DNA of 30,586 bases from a virus, in the IMG/VR virus record IMGVR_UViG_3300050821_023955, positions 1-30,586 of that record; one strand, given 5' to 3'. The translations under genes were made by a program, and so were the position numbers. Below are positions 418-9,095 of the stretch, piece by piece (position 1 is the stretch's first letter; each line of letters starts with the position of its first letter). The notes below the pieces were generated by a model. The model saw only the letters and a program-made list of their open reading frames with translations, was not told the DNA's origin and ran no database searches.

Positions 418-1311
418 TCAGTCGCCCTGATAGCGATAGGCGCTGCCCGGCTCTTTCTCCGGGTACACCTCCTGGGAGCTGGGCCCAGCGCCGGTTCCCT
501 GCGCCACCGCACGCGCCTGCTCCAGTCGCGCGCCGACCACGGCCCTCGATAGCCCGCGGAGCATCGTGATGCCGGCGACAGGCACGCCGTTGAAGTGCTC
601 ACCCATCTTGAGCACGAAGTCCTCGGCGTCGACCGGCAACTGGCCGGCGATCTCCTTCACTGAGTCGACGGCCCCGCGGAGCTGCGCGTCGTCGTCGGTG
701 ACCGGGCCATACGGTAGGACCGGCGCCGCGGGCGGCGTGGCCACTTCGGTGGCCGCGACCACGCTCTCGTCAGCCTCAGGGTCGTCCTCGCTCAGTCCGA
801 AGTCAGCCGGCGTGTAGACCGGCCCCGCGAGCACGTCCGGGCAATACCACTTGACACCGTTTGACATGGCCCGCGCGAACAGCATGTTGCGCGGCGTCTT
901 TCGGTAATTGTCGTTGGATTCGAGCCCCTGCTTTCGAGCGTCATCGATCGTGAACTCGCTGATGTTGGTCTCGCCGGTCTCCTTGTCAGAGAACTCGATC
1001 GCGCACCGCTCGTCGTTATGCGGCTTGAGAACCTTGTAGTCGTAGCGCGGGTGTGCCTTGACGGCCGCGGCCATCAGGTTCGCGGAAACAGTGACTTTTC
1101 CTTTCACGATGTAAATGCCGGTCATCGAGGCGACCGGGCCGAAGCCAAACTCACCGCCGGCCATCACCTTGACGGCGGCCTGGGCGGCGTCTCTTGAGTC
1201 GGCGAAGAACCCGCTGCGGGCGAGTACCTCGCCCAGCTCGACGGGGGTCATTGGGGAGGTACTGATGGGAACGCCGTTCGCCGGCCGGCGCACTAGGGCG
1301 GTGGTACTCAC
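418..1311 (-). CDS. recT: RecT-family single-strand annealing protein
   Basis: 297 residues, within the normal size for phage RecT. RecT anneals complementary single strands and promotes strand invasion in phage recombination and replication. The core matches the family: 'IVKGKVTVSANLMAAAVKAH' (about residues 69-87), 'HPRYDYKV' next to it, and the highly characteristic 'YRKTPRNMLFARAMSNGVKW' (136-155), followed by 'YCPDVLAGPVYTP'. The C-terminal 110 residues are variable, Pro/Ala-rich, with a short helical part, as is common. The start is GTG, overlapping the upstream gene's stop as GTGA, so translation is probably coupled. No RecE-type exonuclease is visible in the window. Confidence 0.93.
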   Translation of the reverse strand: MSTTALVRRPANGVPISTSPMTPVELGEVLARSGFFADSRDAAQAAVKVMAGGEFGFGPVASMTGIYIVKGKVTVSANLMAAAVKAHPRYDYKVLKPHNDERCAIEFSDKETGETNISEFTIDDARKQGLESNDNYRKTPRNMLFARAMSNGVKWYCPDVLAGPVYTPADFGLSEDDPEADESVVAATEVATPPAAPVLPYGPVTDDDAQLRGAVDSVKEIAGQLPVDAEDFVLKMGEHFNGVPVAGITMLRGLSRAVVGARLEQARAVAQGTGAGPSSQEVYPEKEPGSAYRYQGD

Positions 1312-1919
1312 TTGAACAGCTCCTCGTGGTTGAGCTTCGTGGCCGGCGGCTCAGGAGGCTTCGACGGCGCCGCATTCTCAGCGGGTAGCTCGGCGCGGTC
1401 ACCGGGCTCGAACGCACCGGGGGCCGCCGAAGCCTCCTCAGTCGCCTGTGGAATCAGGTCCACCGACCGGGTAACGGTCAGCTTGTCCGGCTTGTCTTTC
1501 CAGGTACAGCACGCCTCCACAGCCCTGCGAGCGCCGCCGTCGAGGCGGTCGCGTAGTGACTTGGCCTTGGCACGGGCGACGACCGGCGCCGGGTGAGTGA
1601 TCACGTCGGCTACGTCGCCGACGTTGACGTGGCCCTCATCAACCAGGTACTTGAGTACAGCCTCAAGCCCCTCGGCGTCCCACTCGCTCTCTCGGCCGCC
1701 CTCTAGGCGTACCTCGTAGTCACCGAACTGCTTGAACCGCAACTCGAGCACCCTCAGCCGCCTGCGCAGCTCCTGCTCGATCGCGCCGCTCCACCGCTTC
1801 ATCTCAGCCTGCCGGGCTTGGATCTCCGCGAGGGTGTCAGCGAGGGACTCCGGTGGCTGCTGGTCGAGGTGCTCAAGGATCTCGCCGGTCGCGGGGTTGA
1901 CGGCCTCGATTTCAGTCAT
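1308..1919 (-). CDS. Unknown early protein upstream of RecT (coiled-coil N-terminus)
   Basis: 203 residues, not recognised with confidence. It opens with 'NPATGEIL', a start seen in several phage recombination-cluster proteins. A charged helix that could form a coiled coil follows (about residues 26-64). Then come a compact part ('YEVRLEGGRESEWDAEGLE', about 68-95), a helical segment, a CC pair near 136 with 'DKLTVTR', and a low-complexity Ala/Pro-rich tail. The position and the helix-then-beta layout recall Gam-like nuclease inhibitors, but I see no decisive motif. It overlaps RecT by four bases and the upstream gene by eight, so it belongs to the same early operon. Confidence 0.75.
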   Translation of the reverse strand: MTEIEAVNPATGEILEHLDQQPPESLADTLAEIQARQAEMKRWSGAIEQELRRRLRVLELRFKQFGDYEVRLEGGRESEWDAEGLEAVLKYLVDEGHVNVGDVADVITHPAPVVARAKAKSLRDRLDGGARRAVEACCTWKDKPDKLTVTRSVDLIPQATEEASAAPGAFEPGDRAELPAENAAPSKPPEPPATKLNHEELFK

Positions 1920-2103
1920 TGGATTCGTCCGGGAAGATCGTGTTGCCGTACTCGTCCTCGATCGCGACTACCGGCGAGTCGCCGAGGATCGTCAGCTTCA
2001 CTTGCCCGTTGGGGGTGTCGGCGATGGCGGTGACGGCCACCAGTCCCCAGGCCTCCTGCAGCGCTCGTAGCTCGCGCGTGAGGTCAGGGACGCCGCGGCT
2101 CAC
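1912..2103 (-). CDS. Small protein of unknown function
   Basis: About 63 residues if the GTG that overlaps the upstream stop (GTGA) is the start. An ATG nine codons earlier gives a 72-residue form with a basic 'MARRRRGR' head, but would overlap the previous gene by 31 bases. The first half is a helix ('LTRELRALQEAWGLV'). The second half looks like alternating strands ('QVKLTILGDSPVVAIEDEYG') with an acidic end. No family was recognised. Coupling to neighbours on both sides places it in the early recombination operon. Confidence 0.6.
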   Translation of the reverse strand: MSRGVPDLTRELRALQEAWGLVAVTAIADTPNGQVKLTILGDSPVVAIEDEYGNTIFPDESND

Positions 2104-2357
2104 GACACGGCCTCGTCTTCGCCGCGCCATGGTGATCCGTTGCTCGGGCGCAGTTGCTGCCAGTCGGTCGAGTCAAGCCAGGACTGCACGGCGTCGTGGC
2201 CGTTCACGTCGCGGTACTCGCGACTGCGGCGCAGCTCCCGGGCGGCGCGCAACCTGGCGTCAAGCCAGAGCGTGCACAGTCCGATCAGAACGACGATGCT
2301 GACGGCCAGCAGAACGCCGAGCGTCACGAGCAGCGAAGTGGTGAACGTTGGGCTCAC
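2100..2357 (-). CDS. Small single-pass membrane protein in early operon
   Basis: About 85 residues from a GTG that overlaps the stop of the PAS-XRE gene (GTGA); a GTG three codons upstream is also possible. A strong hydrophobic segment near the N-terminus ('LGVLLAVSIVVLIGLCTLWL') is followed at once by Arg-rich 'RLRAARELRRSREYR', so the positive-inside rule predicts an outside N-terminus and a cytoplasmic tail of about 50 residues. The tail contains several Trp residues and ends acidic. The family is unknown. A membrane protein coupled directly to a regulator raises the possibility of superinfection exclusion or a sensing partner, but nothing in the sequence proves either. Confidence 0.65.
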   Translation of the reverse strand: MSPTFTTSLLVTLGVLLAVSIVVLIGLCTLWLDARLRAARELRRSREYRDVNGHDAVQSWLDSTDWQQLRPSNGSPWRGEDEAVS

Positions 2358-3367
2358 CACTCCCACGCTTTCGGCGCGGGCGGCACCGACGTCTGCCGGC
2401 GGTGGAACCAGCTTGCGCCCTCCGCGATGCCGAGAGCCTCAGCGATCTGTTCTTGGCGGTCCCACTTCGGGGTGTGGTCACCGGTCTCCCAGCCGGCAAT
2501 GATCGAGTGGGCCTGATCGCCCCGGTACCCGATCTTATGCGCGAGCTGCTGCTGTGTCTTACCTCGGTCAACGCGAGCCAACCGAATCATCTGACCGACG
2601 AGGAGCTTATGGTCGGAGATCTGGGCGGCGCTCATGCCACGAGAGAATGCGCCGATGAAGTCCTCCGGTCCAGTCGCACGTTGTGCAACATGTGGCACGC
2701 CGTGCAACACTTTCTTCGCTACGTGCGTGGTATTTGTTTTCACCTCCTCTCGGTCCGTTTCCGCTAGTTGGAGAAATAGCTCGCTTGACAAAACCGGCCG
2801 GATACGGCAGCGGTAGCCCGTGATTGTCTCGCCGTCGCCGTCGCGCTGAGCAAGCGTGTCACTCGCGAGCACGACGGGTGCGCCGCCCTTGGCATCGAGC
2901 ATCGTGAAGCCGCGCCAGCGCGCGACGTGCGCAACGTCGATCCCGGCGCCTTCCTCGGGAATTACGCGCCACAAGGTGATCAGGTATCCACCGCGCGTAG
3001 GCCCGACGTTCGTCTTGACCGCAACGGTTGCACCCGAGGAGGCCAACATCAACGCCACGCCGGCCCAGCCCAGCTCACATTCCAGTCGTCCAGCTTCCCC
3101 GTCCGCTTCGAGCGCGTACTCCTCAATTCGATGCCCGAGCACTTCCGCCGTAGGCCATCCGAGCAGATTCTGCGCGTCCCAGCACATCACCCTGTAGTCG
3201 AAGCTGATCCAGATGCGTCCGATGGCCTGACGGTGCACCCGTGGAAACAGCTCCCGGAAGTGCCGGCCCAGCACTTCCGATTCCTGCCAGCCGAGGATCG
3301 CCGTCGCCGCGTCGTCCCACACGGTGTACTCGTGCGCCGCATTCGTCCATACAACGGCCTGGTACAT
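2354..3367 (-). CDS. PAS-like / XRE helix-turn-helix transcriptional regulator
   Basis: 337 residues. Residues 16-41 contain 'AILGWQESEVLG' followed by 'RHFRELFP', a classic PAS helix/loop pattern. It repeats at 57-85 as 'LLGWPTAEVLGHRIEEY', followed by beta-rich sequence ('ATVAVKTNVGP', then 'GGYLITLWRVIPEE') that completes a plausible PAS fold near 137. A middle region of unknown fold (140-235) leads to an XRE helix-turn-helix (about 254-315: 'RGKTQQQLAHKIG', then 'IIAGWETGDHTPKWD'). An in-frame stop ten codons upstream rules out a longer N-terminus. Inference: a DNA-binding regulator controlled by a ligand or protein contact. It heads the RecT operon and is divergent from the other XRE gene. 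Confidence 0.78.
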   Translation of the reverse strand: MYQAVVWTNAAHEYTVWDDAATAILGWQESEVLGRHFRELFPRVHRQAIGRIWISFDYRVMCWDAQNLLGWPTAEVLGHRIEEYALEADGEAGRLECELGWAGVALMLASSGATVAVKTNVGPTRGGYLITLWRVIPEEGAGIDVAHVARWRGFTMLDAKGGAPVVLASDTLAQRDGDGETITGYRCRIRPVLSSELFLQLAETDREEVKTNTTHVAKKVLHGVPHVAQRATGPEDFIGAFSRGMSAAQISDHKLLVGQMIRLARVDRGKTQQQLAHKIGYRGDQAHSIIAGWETGDHTPKWDRQEQIAEALGIAEGASWFHRRQTSVPPAPKAWEW

Positions 3368-3527
3368 GACGTCGAACCCCTGGTGAGAACCCGACTATTT
3401 TTAGGTGGCTTTTGTTTGCGCTCACACCACGAGCGAGGCGCGGATGATACAGCGCGCCACGCATAGGCGCCCCACACCTAGAGCAGCAAAACTCTAGACA
3501 CAAATGGTCTGGTCCAGCAATCTCTGA
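3368..3527. promoter_or_regulatory. Divergent regulatory region between two XRE genes
   Basis: This 160-base gap is the longest non-coding stretch in the window and lies between the divergent starts of the two helix-turn-helix genes, so it should hold both promoters and their operators. It is locally AT-richer than its surroundings (TATTTTTAG and TTTTGTTTG near the minus-strand gene; CAGCAAAACTCTAG near the plus-strand gene). I could not identify -35/-10 pairs with correct spacing on either strand. The perfect inverted repeat listed separately lies about 30 bases before the plus-strand start. Confidence 0.6.
3478..3497. promoter_or_regulatory. Inverted repeat, candidate operator
   Basis: CTAGAG, an eight-base spacer, then CTCTAG: perfect 6+6 dyad symmetry over 20 bases, the size expected for an XRE/cI-like dimer site. 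It lies in the divergent intergenic region, 31 bases before the plus-strand XRE start, where binding could block or activate that promoter. Its right arm overlaps the palindrome TCTAGA. I saw no second perfect copy nearby, so the operator role is inferred. Confidence 0.45.
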
Positions 3528-3821
3528 ATGATGGGACGACGTGGCCGGCCCGAGTTTCGGGTGCGGGTTGGGCAACGCATTCGAGATCGGCGACTCGCCG
3601 CGGGCTGGTCGCAGGGCCAGCTCGCGCGCAAACTCCCGGGCCACGTCGAGGGCACGACGGTCAGCCGCTGGGAACTTGGTAAATCGTGGCCGTCCTACCC
3701 GAACGTGATGGCGCTCGCGAAGGTGTTCGACATCACCGAGGAGGAGCTGCTCTGCATCGACGTGCCGAAGCAGCCGAAGCAGCGCCGCAAGTCACCGCGC
3801 GCTACCGCCACCAACCACTAG
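3528..3821 (+). CDS. Small XRE-family repressor/Cro-like regulator
   Basis: 97 residues and the only convincing plus-strand gene. The helix-turn-helix covers about residues 14-75: 'IRDRRLAAGWSQGQLARKL' is helices 1-2, 'EGTTVSRWELGKSWPSYPNV' contains the recognition helix and the usual W-E-x-G turn, and 'LAKVFDITEEELL' closes the domain. A basic, probably disordered tail follows ('KQPKQRRKSPRATATNH'). Two consecutive ATGs are possible starts; neither has a clear ribosome-binding site. It is divergent from the PAS-XRE gene and convergent with the late operon, with which its TAG stop overlaps (shared CTAG). It is probably one arm of a genetic switch; which arm is unknown. Confidence 0.88.
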   Translation: MMGRRGRPEFRVRVGQRIRDRRLAAGWSQGQLARKLPGHVEGTTVSRWELGKSWPSYPNVMALAKVFDITEEELLCIDVPKQPKQRRKSPRATATNH

Positions 3822-4066
3822 CCCTCCTCCAAGGCGGTGACCCTGGCGTCAAGCTCGTCAAGCGCGTCCTGAGCCACGCCGGGAGGCCCCTGCGGACCTG
3901 CCGGCCCCTGCGGACCCGTTGCTCCGGTGGGACCCGCGGGACCGGTCGCCCCCGCCGGACCTGCGGGTCCTGTAGGCCCGGCCGGCCCGGCGCCACCACC
4001 GCCACCCTCCTGCAGCTCGGTGACCGCCTCCCGTAGATCGTCCATTCCACTGACTGGCTCTGGCAT
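3818..4066 (-). CDS. Mini collagen-like protein
   Basis: 82 residues. A short helical head ('MDDLREAVTELQEG', about 8-21) leads to a poly-Gly hinge, then about 13 Gly-x-y triplets ('GPAGPTGPAGPAGATGP' and on), then a helical tail ('ALDELDARVTALEEG') with a heptad-like pattern. This suggests a collagen triple helix held by short trimeric coiled coils. The ATG was chosen because GAGGAGGAGGT lies directly before it; a longer frame upstream has no such signal and overlaps the amidase gene. It is the last gene of the late block. It may be a free fibre, a fibre accessory or a lysis-associated factor; the function is unknown. Confidence 0.75.
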   Translation of the reverse strand: MPEPVSGMDDLREAVTELQEGGGGGAGPAGPTGPAGPAGATGPAGPTGATGPQGPAGPQGPPGVAQDALDELDARVTALEEG

Positions 4067-4077
4067 ACCTCCTCCTC

Positions 4078-4977
4078 TCAGGGTGCGGGCGCAAACCCGA
4101 TCAGGTTGGCGATCCGGTTCTGCGCCGCGCCGTTCCAGGCGCTGGCGCCCTTTGACTGCCACGTGTAGACGGTCGAGCCGTCATCGAGCGTGACGAACAG
4201 ATGCATCGCGCCGGCACGTGAGACCTCGGCGGTGACGCCCCGGATCGTGCGCCCGCTCGGCGCCTCGGCGAAGCGCTGCATCCCTGCGACCCGCTGGCCC
4301 TGCTGGCCGCCATTCCAGGCGGTCTGGTTGGCTCGCTGCCACGTGTACCAGACGGTCCGCCGCTGCGGGCCGACCATGAACACGTGCAGGCTTCCGTTGT
4401 CCGCGACGGCGGACGCGATCATCTCGACCTCCTCGGCCGCTGGTGGTTTCTCTGGTGTCGGGGCCGGCGCCGAGCCCGCGGGCATCCCCGAGCGCACCCA
4501 TGCGATCAGGTCCGGGCCGGGGCACGCGGTCGCGAAGTCGCGGCCGTGCCAGGACTGCTCAAGCCGGCGTCCCGCGACGCTGCCCAACCAGTCATATAGC
4601 TGCCGCGAGCTGGCTTTCATCGCGTCTGAAATCGGCGCGGTCGAGGCCCCGGCGCCGGTCGACGGCTGTAGGTGACAGACACCCCAGCCGTCCGTGTTGC
4701 GCGGCGGGGAGTGAATGCCCCGGACGTCACGGCCGCAACCCTCGTAGATCGTGCCGGACTGGCCGATCAGAAAGTTGTAGCCGGGCGCCGCGCCCCAGCC
4801 CTGATTGCGGTGTATCCGCTCAATGTCGCGGCACCACTGCCGCTCGTCGCGGCTGGACATGACGGGCCAGTGCACGACGTAGAACCTCCGGGCGGCCGGC
4901 GACACGCCCCGGCCACTCGGAATGGTTGTCGCGGCTCCCCACTCGCGACGGCTGACGATGCGAGGTTGGGCTGCCAT
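4078..4977 (-). CDS. Endolysin: N-acetylmuramoyl-L-alanine amidase with propeller-like repeats
   Basis: 299 residues. The N-terminal 160 residues are an amidase_2/PGRP domain that cuts the bond between muramic acid and the stem peptide. It begins with 'IVSRREWGA'. Likely zinc ligands are H36 ('VVHWP'), H144 ('SWHGRDF') and C152 ('ACPGPDL'), with Y67 ('GYNFLIGQSGTIYEG') in the usual catalytic tyrosine place. A Pro/Ala linker (165-185) follows. Then come two similar repeats, near 197-222 ('LHVFMVGPQRRTVWYTWQ') and 258-282 ('MHLFVTLDDGSTVYTWQ', then WNG), resembling blades of PLL/tectonin-type sugar-binding propellers. It starts in a TGATG overlap with the holin-like gene. No signal peptide, so it needs a holin. 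Confidence 0.9.
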   Translation of the reverse strand: MAAQPRIVSRREWGAATTIPSGRGVSPAARRFYVVHWPVMSSRDERQWCRDIERIHRNQGWGAAPGYNFLIGQSGTIYEGCGRDVRGIHSPPRNTDGWGVCHLQPSTGAGASTAPISDAMKASSRQLYDWLGSVAGRRLEQSWHGRDFATACPGPDLIAWVRSGMPAGSAPAPTPEKPPAAEEVEMIASAVADNGSLHVFMVGPQRRTVWYTWQRANQTAWNGGQQGQRVAGMQRFAEAPSGRTIRGVTAEVSRAGAMHLFVTLDDGSTVYTWQSKGASAWNGAAQNRIANLIGFAPAP

Positions 4978-6774: not shown

Positions 6775-6997
6775 CGGTCTCGTCCTCGTCGTCTTTCGTG
6801 TCGCTCTGGTCTATGTGGCGGATTCCGAGGTAGGCGGCGACGGCGCCGACGGACGCGCCGCCGAGCGTCGATAGGAAGGCGATCTCCTCGCTGGTGACCT
6901 TGGTAGGTGTCAGCTCGGCGGTGAGCACGCCGGCCACGAGCGCGATCGCCACGCCGACCGCGAGTACCAGCGCGACGACACCTCGCCAGTCCCTCAC
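6764..6997 (-). CDS. Two-helix small membrane protein, possible holin/antiholin
   Basis: 77 residues from a GTG that overlaps the fibre gene's stop (GTGA); longer frames here only mirror the fibre gene. Two hydrophobic segments, '[21 protein letters not shown]' (7-27) and '[21 protein letters not shown]' (39-59), flank a short Thr/Glu-rich loop, and the C-terminus is acidic ('[15 protein letters not shown]'). This is a good size for a class II holin. As a second candidate holin lies 1.3 kb further on, one of the pair might be an antiholin. No family motif was recognised. Confidence 0.75.
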
Positions 6998-8727
6998 AGC
7001 AAGTCCTTCGGGCCGTCCTCGATGACAGTTCCCGCGTCGATCGTGCCCACGCGCTGGACCTCGATGAAGGAGTGCATCGAGCCGTCGCCGACGTTGTTGG
7101 CCAGGTTGGTGGTCCGGTTTGAGTAGCCGCCCATCGCTCCGATGCGGTTTCCGACGAGCGCCGGCACGGTCGAGGTGATGCTGAACACCGCGAACGGCAG
7201 CATGGACCCGGGTACCTGCTGAGGCACGTAGCCCATCGCGATTCGCTGGAAGCCGCCGTTGACCGTGATCCCGAGCAGGAACGCGGTCTCCGGATCGTTT
7301 GGCATGTGCGCGATCCCCCAGCTCACGGTGACGCGATACAGCCCGCCCGTGGAGCACAAATACTCGCCGTATTGGTCAAACAGCGTGTCCAGCCCGCCGC
7401 CGGGTGTATCGAATGGCAGCTGCACGAACTGGCCTTGGTTGATTGAGAACGCTCCCATGCGGGAACGCCGAGCGAAGAGGCCCCACGCGCCGGGGTCGGT
7501 CCCGCCGGGCGGTCCCGGTTCGCCGGTATCACCCTTCGGGCCGATCGGGCCGATCTCGCCCTGCGGCCCCTGCGCACCTGTCGCGCCAGTGGCGCCCTGA
7601 GGCCCGGTGGCGCCCGGTAGACCGATCCCTGGCTCACCGGGGGTTCCCTGGACGCCCTGTGGACCCTGCGGCCCTGTGGGGCCTGTGGGGCCGCCTGGGC
7701 CGGTCGCGCCGGTGGCGCCGGTAGCGCCCCTGTCACCGGGCGGTCCTGGCGGCCCCTCAATCGCGTCATCGGCATCGATGACGATGCCCTTGACTTTCAC
7801 GACGTAGGCGAGGACGACAAACGGCGGCATGTTGTTGTGCGGCTGGTCGCCGCCGGCCGGGATATGCGGGTAGGCGAGCGGCACGTTCGTTCCCTGGATC
7901 GGTGCCGCGTCACCGGCCTGCCCCTCTCGGAACCCGAAGAAGTAGTCGTTGGGGCCGCCGTGCGCGTGCGCCGGCAGCTCCTCAACCGTTAGCTGGTGCT
8001 CGAGCTCACCGCCTGCGGCGCCAAACGGCGGACTCTCAGGCCGGCTGCCGGCAGAGAACAGGAACCGATCGCGTAGGTCCGGGACGGTGAAGGTGCGCGG
8101 GTAGGCATTGACGTCGACCGACCAGAGCGGATTGCCGCCAAACGCCTCGTCAACGGCGAACGAGAAGCCCTGCGGGTAGTCGTCCTGGGTGTACTGACGA
8201 CCGTCGCAGAGCACGAACCCGGGCGGCAGGCCCGCCTTCCCGGACCAGGCGATGACCGCACCGATCGGCGAGGTCTCGATCCCCGGCCCCTCCGGCCCCT
8301 GAGCGCCGTCGTTACCGTCCTGCCCGTCCTCGCCGCGCTCGCCCTGCGGCCCCTGCTCACCCTGCGGACCCGTGGGCCCAAGGTCGCCCTGCGGACCCTG
8401 CGGCCCCTGCGGTCCGGCTGCGCCCTGGACGCCCTCTGAGCCCTGTGGACCCGTCCCGCCGGCCGGGCCGACCGGACCTTGGTCGCCGCGCGGCCCCTGC
8501 TCACCAGGCTCCCCCTGCGGCCCGGCAGGCCCCGGCGGGCCACCCGGGTCCCCGGGGTCGCCCTGCGGCCCCATCGGTCCCTCGGGGCCGGCTGGTCCCT
8601 GCGGCCCGCCGGGAGGTCCGACGCCGCCCATCGCAACCTGCGGGATGGTCACCGGGCCGAGCACCACCCGAACCTCGGCCGGCCGGCGCGTGGAGTCCGC
8701 CAGGTCGATCGTGACACGACCGCTCAT
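6994..8727 (-). CDS. Tail fibre: collagen - tail collar - collagen - C1q-like tip
   Basis: 577 residues from the ATG overlapping the previous stop (ATGA). Residues 1-34 are a short beta-rich attachment part. Residues 35-148 are Gly-x-y collagen repeats. Residues about 152-314 form a tail collar/microcystin-dependent-protein-like domain ('[19 protein letters not shown]', 'LCDGRQY', '[15 protein letters not shown]', 'LPAHAHGG', '[16 protein letters not shown]'). Residues 325-409 are a second collagen run. Residues 410-577 look like a C1q/TNF jelly roll ('[16 protein letters not shown]', '[11 protein letters not shown]'). Such domains make trimeric, receptor-binding fibre tips. Last gene before the lysis cassette. 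Confidence 0.88.
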
Positions 8728-9095
8728 CGGGTCACGTCCAGATCGCATTGCACGTCGCCCTGAATCAGCGTCACCGGTTCGGAGTCGGCCATCGTCCAGA
8801 CGCAATCCCAGGCGCCCTTGAACCGGTCGGCGTCCTTCATCAGCGCACGGGTGTCCTCGCTAGCGAGCCGCAGGACGAGAACGCCCTGCTCAGCCTCGGC
8901 CATCTCGACCGCCCACTCCGCGAGGGCAGCCTGGTCGCGGCGGGATGCGCGGATCTGTGCCCGCACCGTTCCGCGGAGGTCAAACGGCTCGCCGTCAAGG
9001 TCGGTTGCGGTCAGGCGCAGGTTCGCCCCGTCCCCGGCGTAGAGGACGAGGTTCACGACCGGAGGTACGAGCGAAACGACGCTTGGCCGAGCCAT
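8724..9095 (-). CDS. BppU-N-like tail/baseplate attachment domain protein
   Basis: 123 residues, one compact beta-sandwich-like domain. '[20 protein letters not shown]', then 'PFDLRG', then '[15 protein letters not shown]' and '[20 protein letters not shown]', then '[11 protein letters not shown]', follows the pattern of the N-terminal domain of baseplate upper proteins (BppU_N), which attach receptor-binding proteins to the baseplate. Here it stands alone rather than being fused to a fibre, and is coupled (ATGA) to the large collagen fibre, so it may be that fibre's adaptor. The fold assignment is by pattern only. Confidence 0.65.

Follow-up and report, generated by a model that had tools for sequence, protein, structure and literature searches.

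Organization of the PAS-XRE Locus

The window, i.e., the whole stretch of DNA that was analyzed, is a 30,586-base virus record that ends at the RecT side, and the gene addressed in the present study occupies 2354..3367 on its minus strand. The ORF has an ATG start and encodes a protein of 337 aa (P0001), which was assigned as a PAS-XRE regulator from the ORF itself, Pfam and NCBIfam profiles, and coding-frame scores. Codon scores, for which 15 other window genes served as the training set, placed the frame of P0001 above the other two sense frames from residue 1 to approximately 320, in 16 of the 17 scoring windows starting inside the gene; the exception was the last, in which the next gene overlaps. 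At residues 61-100, in one scoring window, an antisense frame was marginally above the annotated one (-0.01 vs -0.07).

The minus-strand genes at 2354-3367, 2100-2366, 1912-2130, 1308-1919, and 418-1311 overlap end to start. Directly downstream of the P0001 gene is that for a small membrane protein with one strongly hydrophobic 19-mer (2100..2366, minus strand), which is followed on the same strand by a 72-aa ORF overlapping its neighbors, with sub-threshold family matches only (1912..2130), a 203-aa early protein designated g1308 (1308..1919), and a RecT-like annealing protein (418..1311; PHROG 561, 2.3e-19). Upstream of P0001, a divergent intergenic region of 160 bp (3368..3527), presumed to contain the operator and promoter, separates the operon from a plus-strand gene for a 97-aa XRE protein (3528..3821; PF01381 43.6 bits; PHROG 3 1.1e-13), which is a candidate CI/Cro-type partner. 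The initial annotation, in which the gene led a RecT operon and faced a second XRE gene, is thus borne out by an overlapping operon ending in RecT and by the 97-aa XRE gene across the gap. It had also described an operator-like dyad in this gap. The dyad, CTAGAG-N8-CTCTAG at 3478-3497, does exist; however, it is no better than chance, because a dyad with 6-bp arms arose in 34% of 300 shuffles of the 160-bp gap. With two mismatches allowed, the pattern was expected 0.47 times and found once in the window, and no sigma-70-type site was detected in 3300-3600.

Regarding the rest of the window, eight genes were scanned by profile and assigned to an amidase (PF01510), a GH19 lysin (PF00182), Baseplate_J (PF04865), a tape measure protein, a tail sheath protein (PHROG 23, 6.1e-33, with the Pfam sheath models sub-threshold), a major head protein, a portal protein, and the large terminase. 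The structural genes among them indicate a contractile-tailed phage, the terminase of which showed 25-29% identity among the 15 matches listed of 341 phage records. Collagen-like Gly-X-Y repeats were noted by eye in proteins of the tail and lysis region (3818-4162 and 6994-8805).

Domain Composition of P0001

The XRE-type helix-turn-helix (HTH) is located at residues 258-316 (2420..2596, minus strand). Whole P0001 passed PF01381 (23.7 bits, cut-off 23) and fell short of PF13560 (26.5 vs 27) and PF12844 (27.4 vs 30.2), and its C-terminal 97 residues passed all three models (PF01381 26.7, PF13560 29.7, and PF12844 30.7 bits), in agreement with the C-terminal XRE domain that had been annotated. 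The S24 autoprotease (PF00717) was not listed for P0001 in the Pfam scan; the cI control from VP882 scored 71.5 bits.

At the N terminus, PF00989 matched whole P0001 with 26.7 bits (cut-off 22.6), and PF08448 (22.4 vs 23.1) and TIGR00229 (20.4 vs 22.9) were just below their cut-offs. When residues 1-140 were scanned alone, PF00989 (29.2 bits), PF08448 (24.9 bits), and TIGR00229 (23.6 bits) were all above them. The profile search suggested by the initial annotation therefore found PF00989 passing in the whole protein and PF08448 for residues 1-140. Since the cut-offs of PF00989 and PF01381 were both passed by whole P0001, the co-occurrence of PAS and XRE sequences in one phage protein is upheld. 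As judged from its sequence, P0001 is a phage transcription regulator joining a PAS sensor-type domain to an XRE repressor-type DNA-binding domain. AlphaFold2 in the single-sequence mode returned a mean pLDDT of 32.8 for whole P0001 and 33.6 for residues 1-140.

The PAS-type motifs were also located as originally described, with AILGWQESEVLG at residues 23-34 and NLLGWPTAEVLG at residues 67-78 at a spacing of exactly 44. The underlying repeat, residues 6-39 against 52-83, gave a Smith-Waterman score of 61 (null mean 22), which was not reached in any of 5000 shuffles (0/5000), and it is the best internal repeat of whole P0001 (0/60 whole-protein shuffles). The DNA identity of the two copies is only 52% over 96 bases, and, thus, the duplication is not recent. 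We refer to the first copy, residues 5-43 (3239..3355, minus strand), as N1 and to the second, residues 52-83 (3119..3214, minus strand), as N2, each corresponding to the N-terminal half of a PAS domain. The PAS profile matches in P0001 cover the first copy only (residues 5-43 or 5-53), that of PF00989 being limited to profile positions 14-52 of 113. N2 alone gave no profile match, and no Pfam or NCBIfam model matched residues 41-140, which comprise the second copy and the following strands. The profile scan of residues 139-250 yielded MacB_PCD only, far under its cut-off, and no PHROG v4 family matched the PAS part of P0001 or of the related proteins P0002 and P0003 described below (limits E 1, 0.1, and 0.01).

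The restriction of the profile matches in P0001 to one N-terminal half, together with a second copy that matches nothing, may be taken as a sign that the similarity to PAS is confined to a short motif and arose by chance. We consider this extremely unlikely, given that one curated PAS cut-off was passed by whole P0001 and three by residues 1-140, and that a syntenic relative in the phage G058 independently passes PF00989.

Searches for Homologues

A full-length homologue of P0001 was not found in IMG/VR, GTDB, phages, plasmids, or solved structures. In IMG/VR, the whole protein retrieved one match restricted to the HTH (42% over residues 257-315) and its N terminus none that was confirmed; in GTDB genomes, none of 25 pattern matches was confirmed. 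By tblastn against phages, 35 records were obtained, all in the HTH region, and the N-terminal 248 aa gave none at E up to 10. Among plasmids, 23 records were retrieved, each with its best place in the HTH region, and of the solved structures, three chains were matched by whole P0001 in the HTH region (E limit 1) and none by residues 1-140 (E limit 10).

A search guided by RecT gave 71 loci, found by short patterns, to which PF00989 was applied at E<=0.01 (49 records) or E<=0.1 (22 records). It had one match over the 71 records, in G044, and PAS-XRE was found in 0 of the 71. P0001 had no match in the 30 of these records that were compared with it, and P0003 had one in 47, at residues 172-219 around the HTH. 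The G044 protein (L074, 1111-1872, minus strand; 253 aa) matches PF08447 over the complete PAS domain (43.9 bits) and has hydrophobic C-terminal segments discerned by eye; as a relative of P0001 it was rejected as unrelated, with no HTH family listed. The phage G058 carries RecT, yet it lies outside the 71 because these had been collected by short patterns.

Since the searches with P0001 gave only HTH domains, phage relatives were sought through other genes, and searches with the terminase and tail sheath yielded, in addition to the window, nine virus records that are related to it (G051-G059). The proteins of these relatives were also used as queries: P0003 gave no match in phages at E up to 1 and 49 records in plasmids, of which all 30 that were listed matched within the PAS region, with 0.004 as their best E value, and in IMG/VR, P0002 retrieved its own record only. 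A search of IMG/VR with the amidase gene gave nothing. An alignment of the baseplate protein gave 591 pattern matches in GTDB, none of which was confirmed, and no host or prophage was found there.

PAS-XRE Genes in Related Phages

A PAS-XRE gene is present in two of the nine related records, G053 and G058, or in three of ten when the window is counted, and in both it stands at the same place as in the window and is followed by the same small membrane ORF. The survey of homologues envisaged at the outset accordingly found the PAS-XRE order kept in two of nine records, six of the other seven being fragments of 17.7 kb or less, and did not refute the initial annotation. The start codons of both proteins, P0002 in G053 and P0003 in G058, are ATG codons chosen by us, with which both begin MQ-x-x-VDG.

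The sheath of G053 is 84% identical to that of the window, and a 95-aa XRE gene, the product of which shares 33% identity over 66 aa with the 97-aa XRE protein of the window, is divergent from the P0002 gene (approximately 304 aa). When the N terminus of P0002 was scanned apart, PAS_4 was matched at positions 5-92 with 21.4 bits, slightly short of its 23.1 cut-off; the XRE match at the C terminus of P0002 was weak (PF13560 17.9 vs 27 bits; PHROG 4, 5.1e-05). In G058, the sheath of which is 70% identical, PAS_4 and HTH_3 matches were found in one open frame (P0003, 256 aa). PF00989 matched P0003 with 33.1 bits, or 35.2 bits for residues 1-121 alone (cut-off 22.6); its HTH was sub-threshold in Pfam (HTH_31 20.7 and HTH_3 14.5 bits), and residues 185-237 matched PHROG 7950, a transcriptional repressor (1.9e-07).

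The membrane ORF after PAS-XRE shows 36-41% identity to that of the window in G053 and G058, and this small membrane protein could be a partner of, or a signal input for, the PAS-XRE regulator. Its copies at 2100-2366 (-) in the window, L086:9020-9241 (+), and L104:677-904 (-) have a single span and a conserved soluble tail, DAxxxWL ... NGxPW/F. Beyond the membrane ORF, homologues of g1308 (41%) and RecT (61%) come next in G058. No match to the RecT or g1308 of the window was found in G053, in which an exonuclease stands there instead (PHROG 298, 4.4e-36), and, thus, the operon behind the PAS-XRE gene is not constant.

No divergent XRE gene was found in G058. Instead, two genes that overlap each other (156 and 190 aa; L114:7622-8661, minus strand) lie upstream of PAS-XRE on the same strand, at the position that the divergent XRE gene has in the window and G053; their products have a winged-helix look by eye, with sub-threshold Pfam hints, and the 156-aa protein has a 29% relative in G057.

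A tyrosine integrase was identified in G053 (PF00589 36.6 bits; PHROG 1 2.9e-38), which makes the lineage probably temperate; a search with this integrase gave no match in either the window or G058. A tRNA-like sequence (L086:15838-15906, minus strand; 18.7 bits, E 0.83) was observed immediately beyond the integrase gene of G053. It is below the Rfam gathering score and is, thus, perhaps due to chance; if real, it would be a candidate attP and could point to the host.

The other seven related records gave no PAS match. Six of them (G051, G052, G054, G055, G056, and G059) are fragmentary, with lengths of 7.8-17.7 kb, and no match to the early-region genes of the window was found in G051, G052, G054, G055, or G056. 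G057 (41.9 kb, sheath 42%) is a more distant relative with XRE genes and without a PAS match, in which a serine integrase (L088:6017-7381; PF00239 64.3 bits) takes the place of the tyrosine integrase. A 137-aa protein of G057 with two tandem HTH_3 matches (L116; 40290-41117) is encoded divergently from another XRE gene.

Conservation of the Sensor Half and Possible Exchange of the DNA-Binding Half

The PAS regions of P0002 and P0003 aligned with 43% identity over 98 aa (E 5e-17), and the PAS domains of G053 and G058 are clearly homologous by this comparison. In the search with the whole proteins, residues 1-96 only were matched, and the C-terminal parts showed no detectable similarity (922/3000 shuffles). 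The sensor half may have been inherited and the DNA-binding half swapped, which would be the reverse of what is expected if the operator is the stable part.

P0001 showed no significant full-length similarity to P0002 or P0003 (BLASTP E 0.12-0.14 at best), and hhalign of P0001 against the P0002/P0003 pair listed the HTH region as its only match, with a probability of 4%. An HMM of the P0002 and P0003 PAS domains did not place P0001 above shuffles. Pairwise comparisons with the PAS domain of P0003 gave 9/3000 shuffles for the first copy of P0001 and, for the second copy with the strands, a score of 49 (6/3000 and 2/3000 shuffles in two runs); those with the PAS domain of P0002 were not significant (1491/3000 for the first copy and 428/3000 for the second with the strands). 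Because sequence similarity is weak, the common descent of P0001 with P0002 and P0003 is inferred mainly from place, neighbors, and domain order, and by these comparisons P0001 is the furthest drifted of the three PAS-XRE proteins. They also bear on the earlier view that only the second copy forms a full PAS domain. The profiles detect the first copy and no model matches residues 41-140, contrary to that view; however, residues 41-140 align with the PAS domain of G058, which is in its favor as weaker evidence.

Possible Nesting of Two PAS Domains

The order of the half-domains in P0001 is odd, with an N-half, a second N-half, a C-half, and perhaps a second C-half, the last step being weak. The C-half, C2 (residues 95-138; 2954..3085, minus strand), is similar to the C-halves of the PAS domains of G058 (9/3000 shuffles) and G053 (16/3000). 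The possible second one, C1, which is tentative (residues 148-192; 2792..2926, minus strand), gave 5/3000 shuffles against C2, 4/3000 against the C-half of G058, and 306/3000 against that of G053. As the likeness of C1 had been noticed post hoc, the shuffle counts were redone by scanning residues 141-337 whole, which resulted in 38/5000 against C2, 76/5000 against G058, and 1710/5000 against G053.

When N1 and C1 were joined, the PF00989 match lengthened to positions 14-102 and scored 25.9 bits versus 25.4 for N1 alone (+0.5), a gain that is not decisive; N1 joined to C2 scored 24.8 bits and N1 joined to a hand-typed scramble of C1, the composition of which was unchecked, 24.2 bits. The joined N2+C1 string gave no PAS match, and the FixL-type PAS chains retrieved from the PDB with the joined N1+C1 string had E values no better than 0.06. 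In a MAFFT alignment, N1 was aligned to the PAS start of the relatives and most of N2 appeared as an insertion.

This N-N-C-C order is perhaps what would result from one PAS domain inserted in another, a hypothesis that would explain why the first copy had looked cut short. A search of the literature on nested PAS domains, judged by titles, found nothing related; if true, the arrangement would be an unusual way of building a sensor.

A Model of Early Gene Control and Its Alternatives

Our preferred reading, in which we place moderate confidence, is that P0001 is a dimeric PAS-XRE factor, that its gene comes first in the early (RecT) operon, and that its PAS module sets the grip of the HTH on its operators. 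In this model, the PAS module would hold two P0001 monomers together, and a ligand, cofactor, or partner bound by it would set how tightly the HTH pair grips candidate operators in the 160-bp gap, such that early-gene transcription, and with it the lysis-lysogeny choice, would be tuned to the state of the host cell. Within the lineage, the sensor half would have been kept and the DNA-reading half exchanged. The PAS module of the window would have gained an additional N-half, and perhaps an additional C-half too, the simplest route being the insertion of a PAS inside a PAS. A signal, either a chemical or a protein, may thus be read by these phages in their choice of dormancy or lysis. Only tentatively do we extend this to a temperate contractile-tailed lineage with its early operon under a PAS chemosensor fused to an exchangeable XRE domain, in which the sensor of the window is a nested PAS (N1-N2-C2-C1), possibly with two inputs.

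The sensing of a small molecule, redox state, or light that the initial annotation envisaged is speculative; PAS domains can act purely as dimerisers. If that of P0001 is a dimerisation or protein-partner domain without a ligand, control would depend on the amount of the regulator or on a partner such as the small membrane protein. The irregular PAS of the window with its two N-halves, the membrane ORF after PAS-XRE in all three phages, and the requirement of the PAS domain of VqmA for dimerisation, as stated in an excerpt of the report on that protein (PMC8284805), are in line with this alternative. On the other hand, the PAS domain is the only part detectably conserved between G053 and G058, and a plain dimeriser needs less constraint, an argument that is not decisive. 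We regard this alternative as a real possibility, albeit one with a chance of well under one half.

By position, the P0001 gene is the first early gene and occupies a Cro-like place, and the divergent XRE gene (97 aa in the window) is at the place of a CI-type repressor in the window and G053. The opposite assignment, P0001 being the lysogeny repressor itself (the CI equivalent) and the 97-aa XRE protein that of Cro, appears rather unlikely to us. It is consistent with the larger, two-domain build of P0001, which is like that of CI-type repressors, and with G058, in which the PAS-XRE gene is the sole HTH_3 match of its record (16.7 bits, sub-threshold) and its HTH resembles the phage repressor family PHROG 7950. 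However, the P0001 gene stands first in the early RecT operon, a place from which a repressor of this operon would not normally be expressed in a lysogen, no S24 autoprotease domain was found by Pfam, and in the window and G053 the divergent monocistronic XRE gene suits the CI place better.

As for the preferred reading, in which the PAS module sets the HTH grip, P0001 is small and expressible, and together with its 160-bp target region it allows the question of which signal the phage reads to be asked.

Comparison with Known Systems

Phages usually link the control of lysis and lysogeny to DNA damage, peptides, or quorum signals, and the best-known chemical cases are read by LuxR-type proteins. 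VqmA of the vibriophage VP882 is the receptor of DPO and activates an antirepressor gene. In two reports, its N-terminal PAS domain is described as both ligand-binding and required for dimerisation, and its C-terminal HTH as the part that picks the promoter (PMC8284805, PMC12802170). The choice of promoter is described in an excerpt of the former as residing in the DNA-binding domain (PMC8284805), a finding with which a changing DNA-reading half and a constant sensor in the present lineage are in accordance. P0001 is similarly phage-encoded, with an N-terminal PAS and a C-terminal HTH. In contrast to the LuxR/GerE HTH of VqmA, that of P0001 is of the XRE type with no GerE match listed; as a control, VqmA itself gave 58.4 bits for PAS_4 and 41.9 bits for GerE in Pfam. 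The PAS domain of VqmA matches as one regular stretch, unlike that of P0001, and the VqmA gene lies approximately 4 kb from the VP882 gene read as cI by its S24 and HTH_3 matches, whereas the P0001 gene heads the RecT operon. VqmA belongs to phrog_27555 and has no PHROG in common with P0001-P0003, for which only HTH-region or weak matches were obtained.

The MmyB/MltR family of actinomycete XRE regulators, which have a PAS-like fatty-acid-binding domain, resembles P0001 in joining an XRE HTH to a PAS-like ligand domain, and its members are described as dimeric and actinomycete-rich in an excerpt on MltR (PMC3406030). PF17765 (MLTR_LBD) was weakly matched by the PAS domain of G058 (20.0 bits), which is under the cut-off of 26.3, and was unlisted for P0001 and P0002. 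The HTH is N-terminal and the PAS domain C-terminal in this family (PMC3406030, PMC10717218), the reverse of P0001, and membership of P0001, which fails on this already, is very improbable.

CI/LexA-type repressors, which combine HTH_3 with Peptidase_S24, share with P0001 an XRE-type HTH, the immunity-region position, and the divergent layout; in P0001, by contrast, S24 is absent, the HTH is C-terminal, and PAS replaces the autoprotease. Phage homoserine lactone receptors of the LuxR type, in which an autoinducer-binding LuxR domain is joined to a LuxR HTH, reportedly represent phage genes that read host chemical signals; unlike in these receptors, the autoinducer-binding domain and the LuxR HTH were not found in P0001.

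In the open-access literature, as searched by titles and abstract starts, VqmA of VP882 was the only PAS regulator of a phage or prophage found, which is not proof of absence, and the combination of PAS with XRE was found in the MmyB/MltR family, in the reverse order. Phage PAS-HTH regulators are, thus, already known from VqmA with its LuxR-type HTH, and what would be new here, on sequence grounds, is the XRE reader in a separate lineage. PAS-XRE would represent a sensor domain with a different DNA-binding partner for the lysis-lysogeny choice, and its retention as the leading gene of the early operon throughout this lineage would show a second, independent phage route to a general sensor domain.
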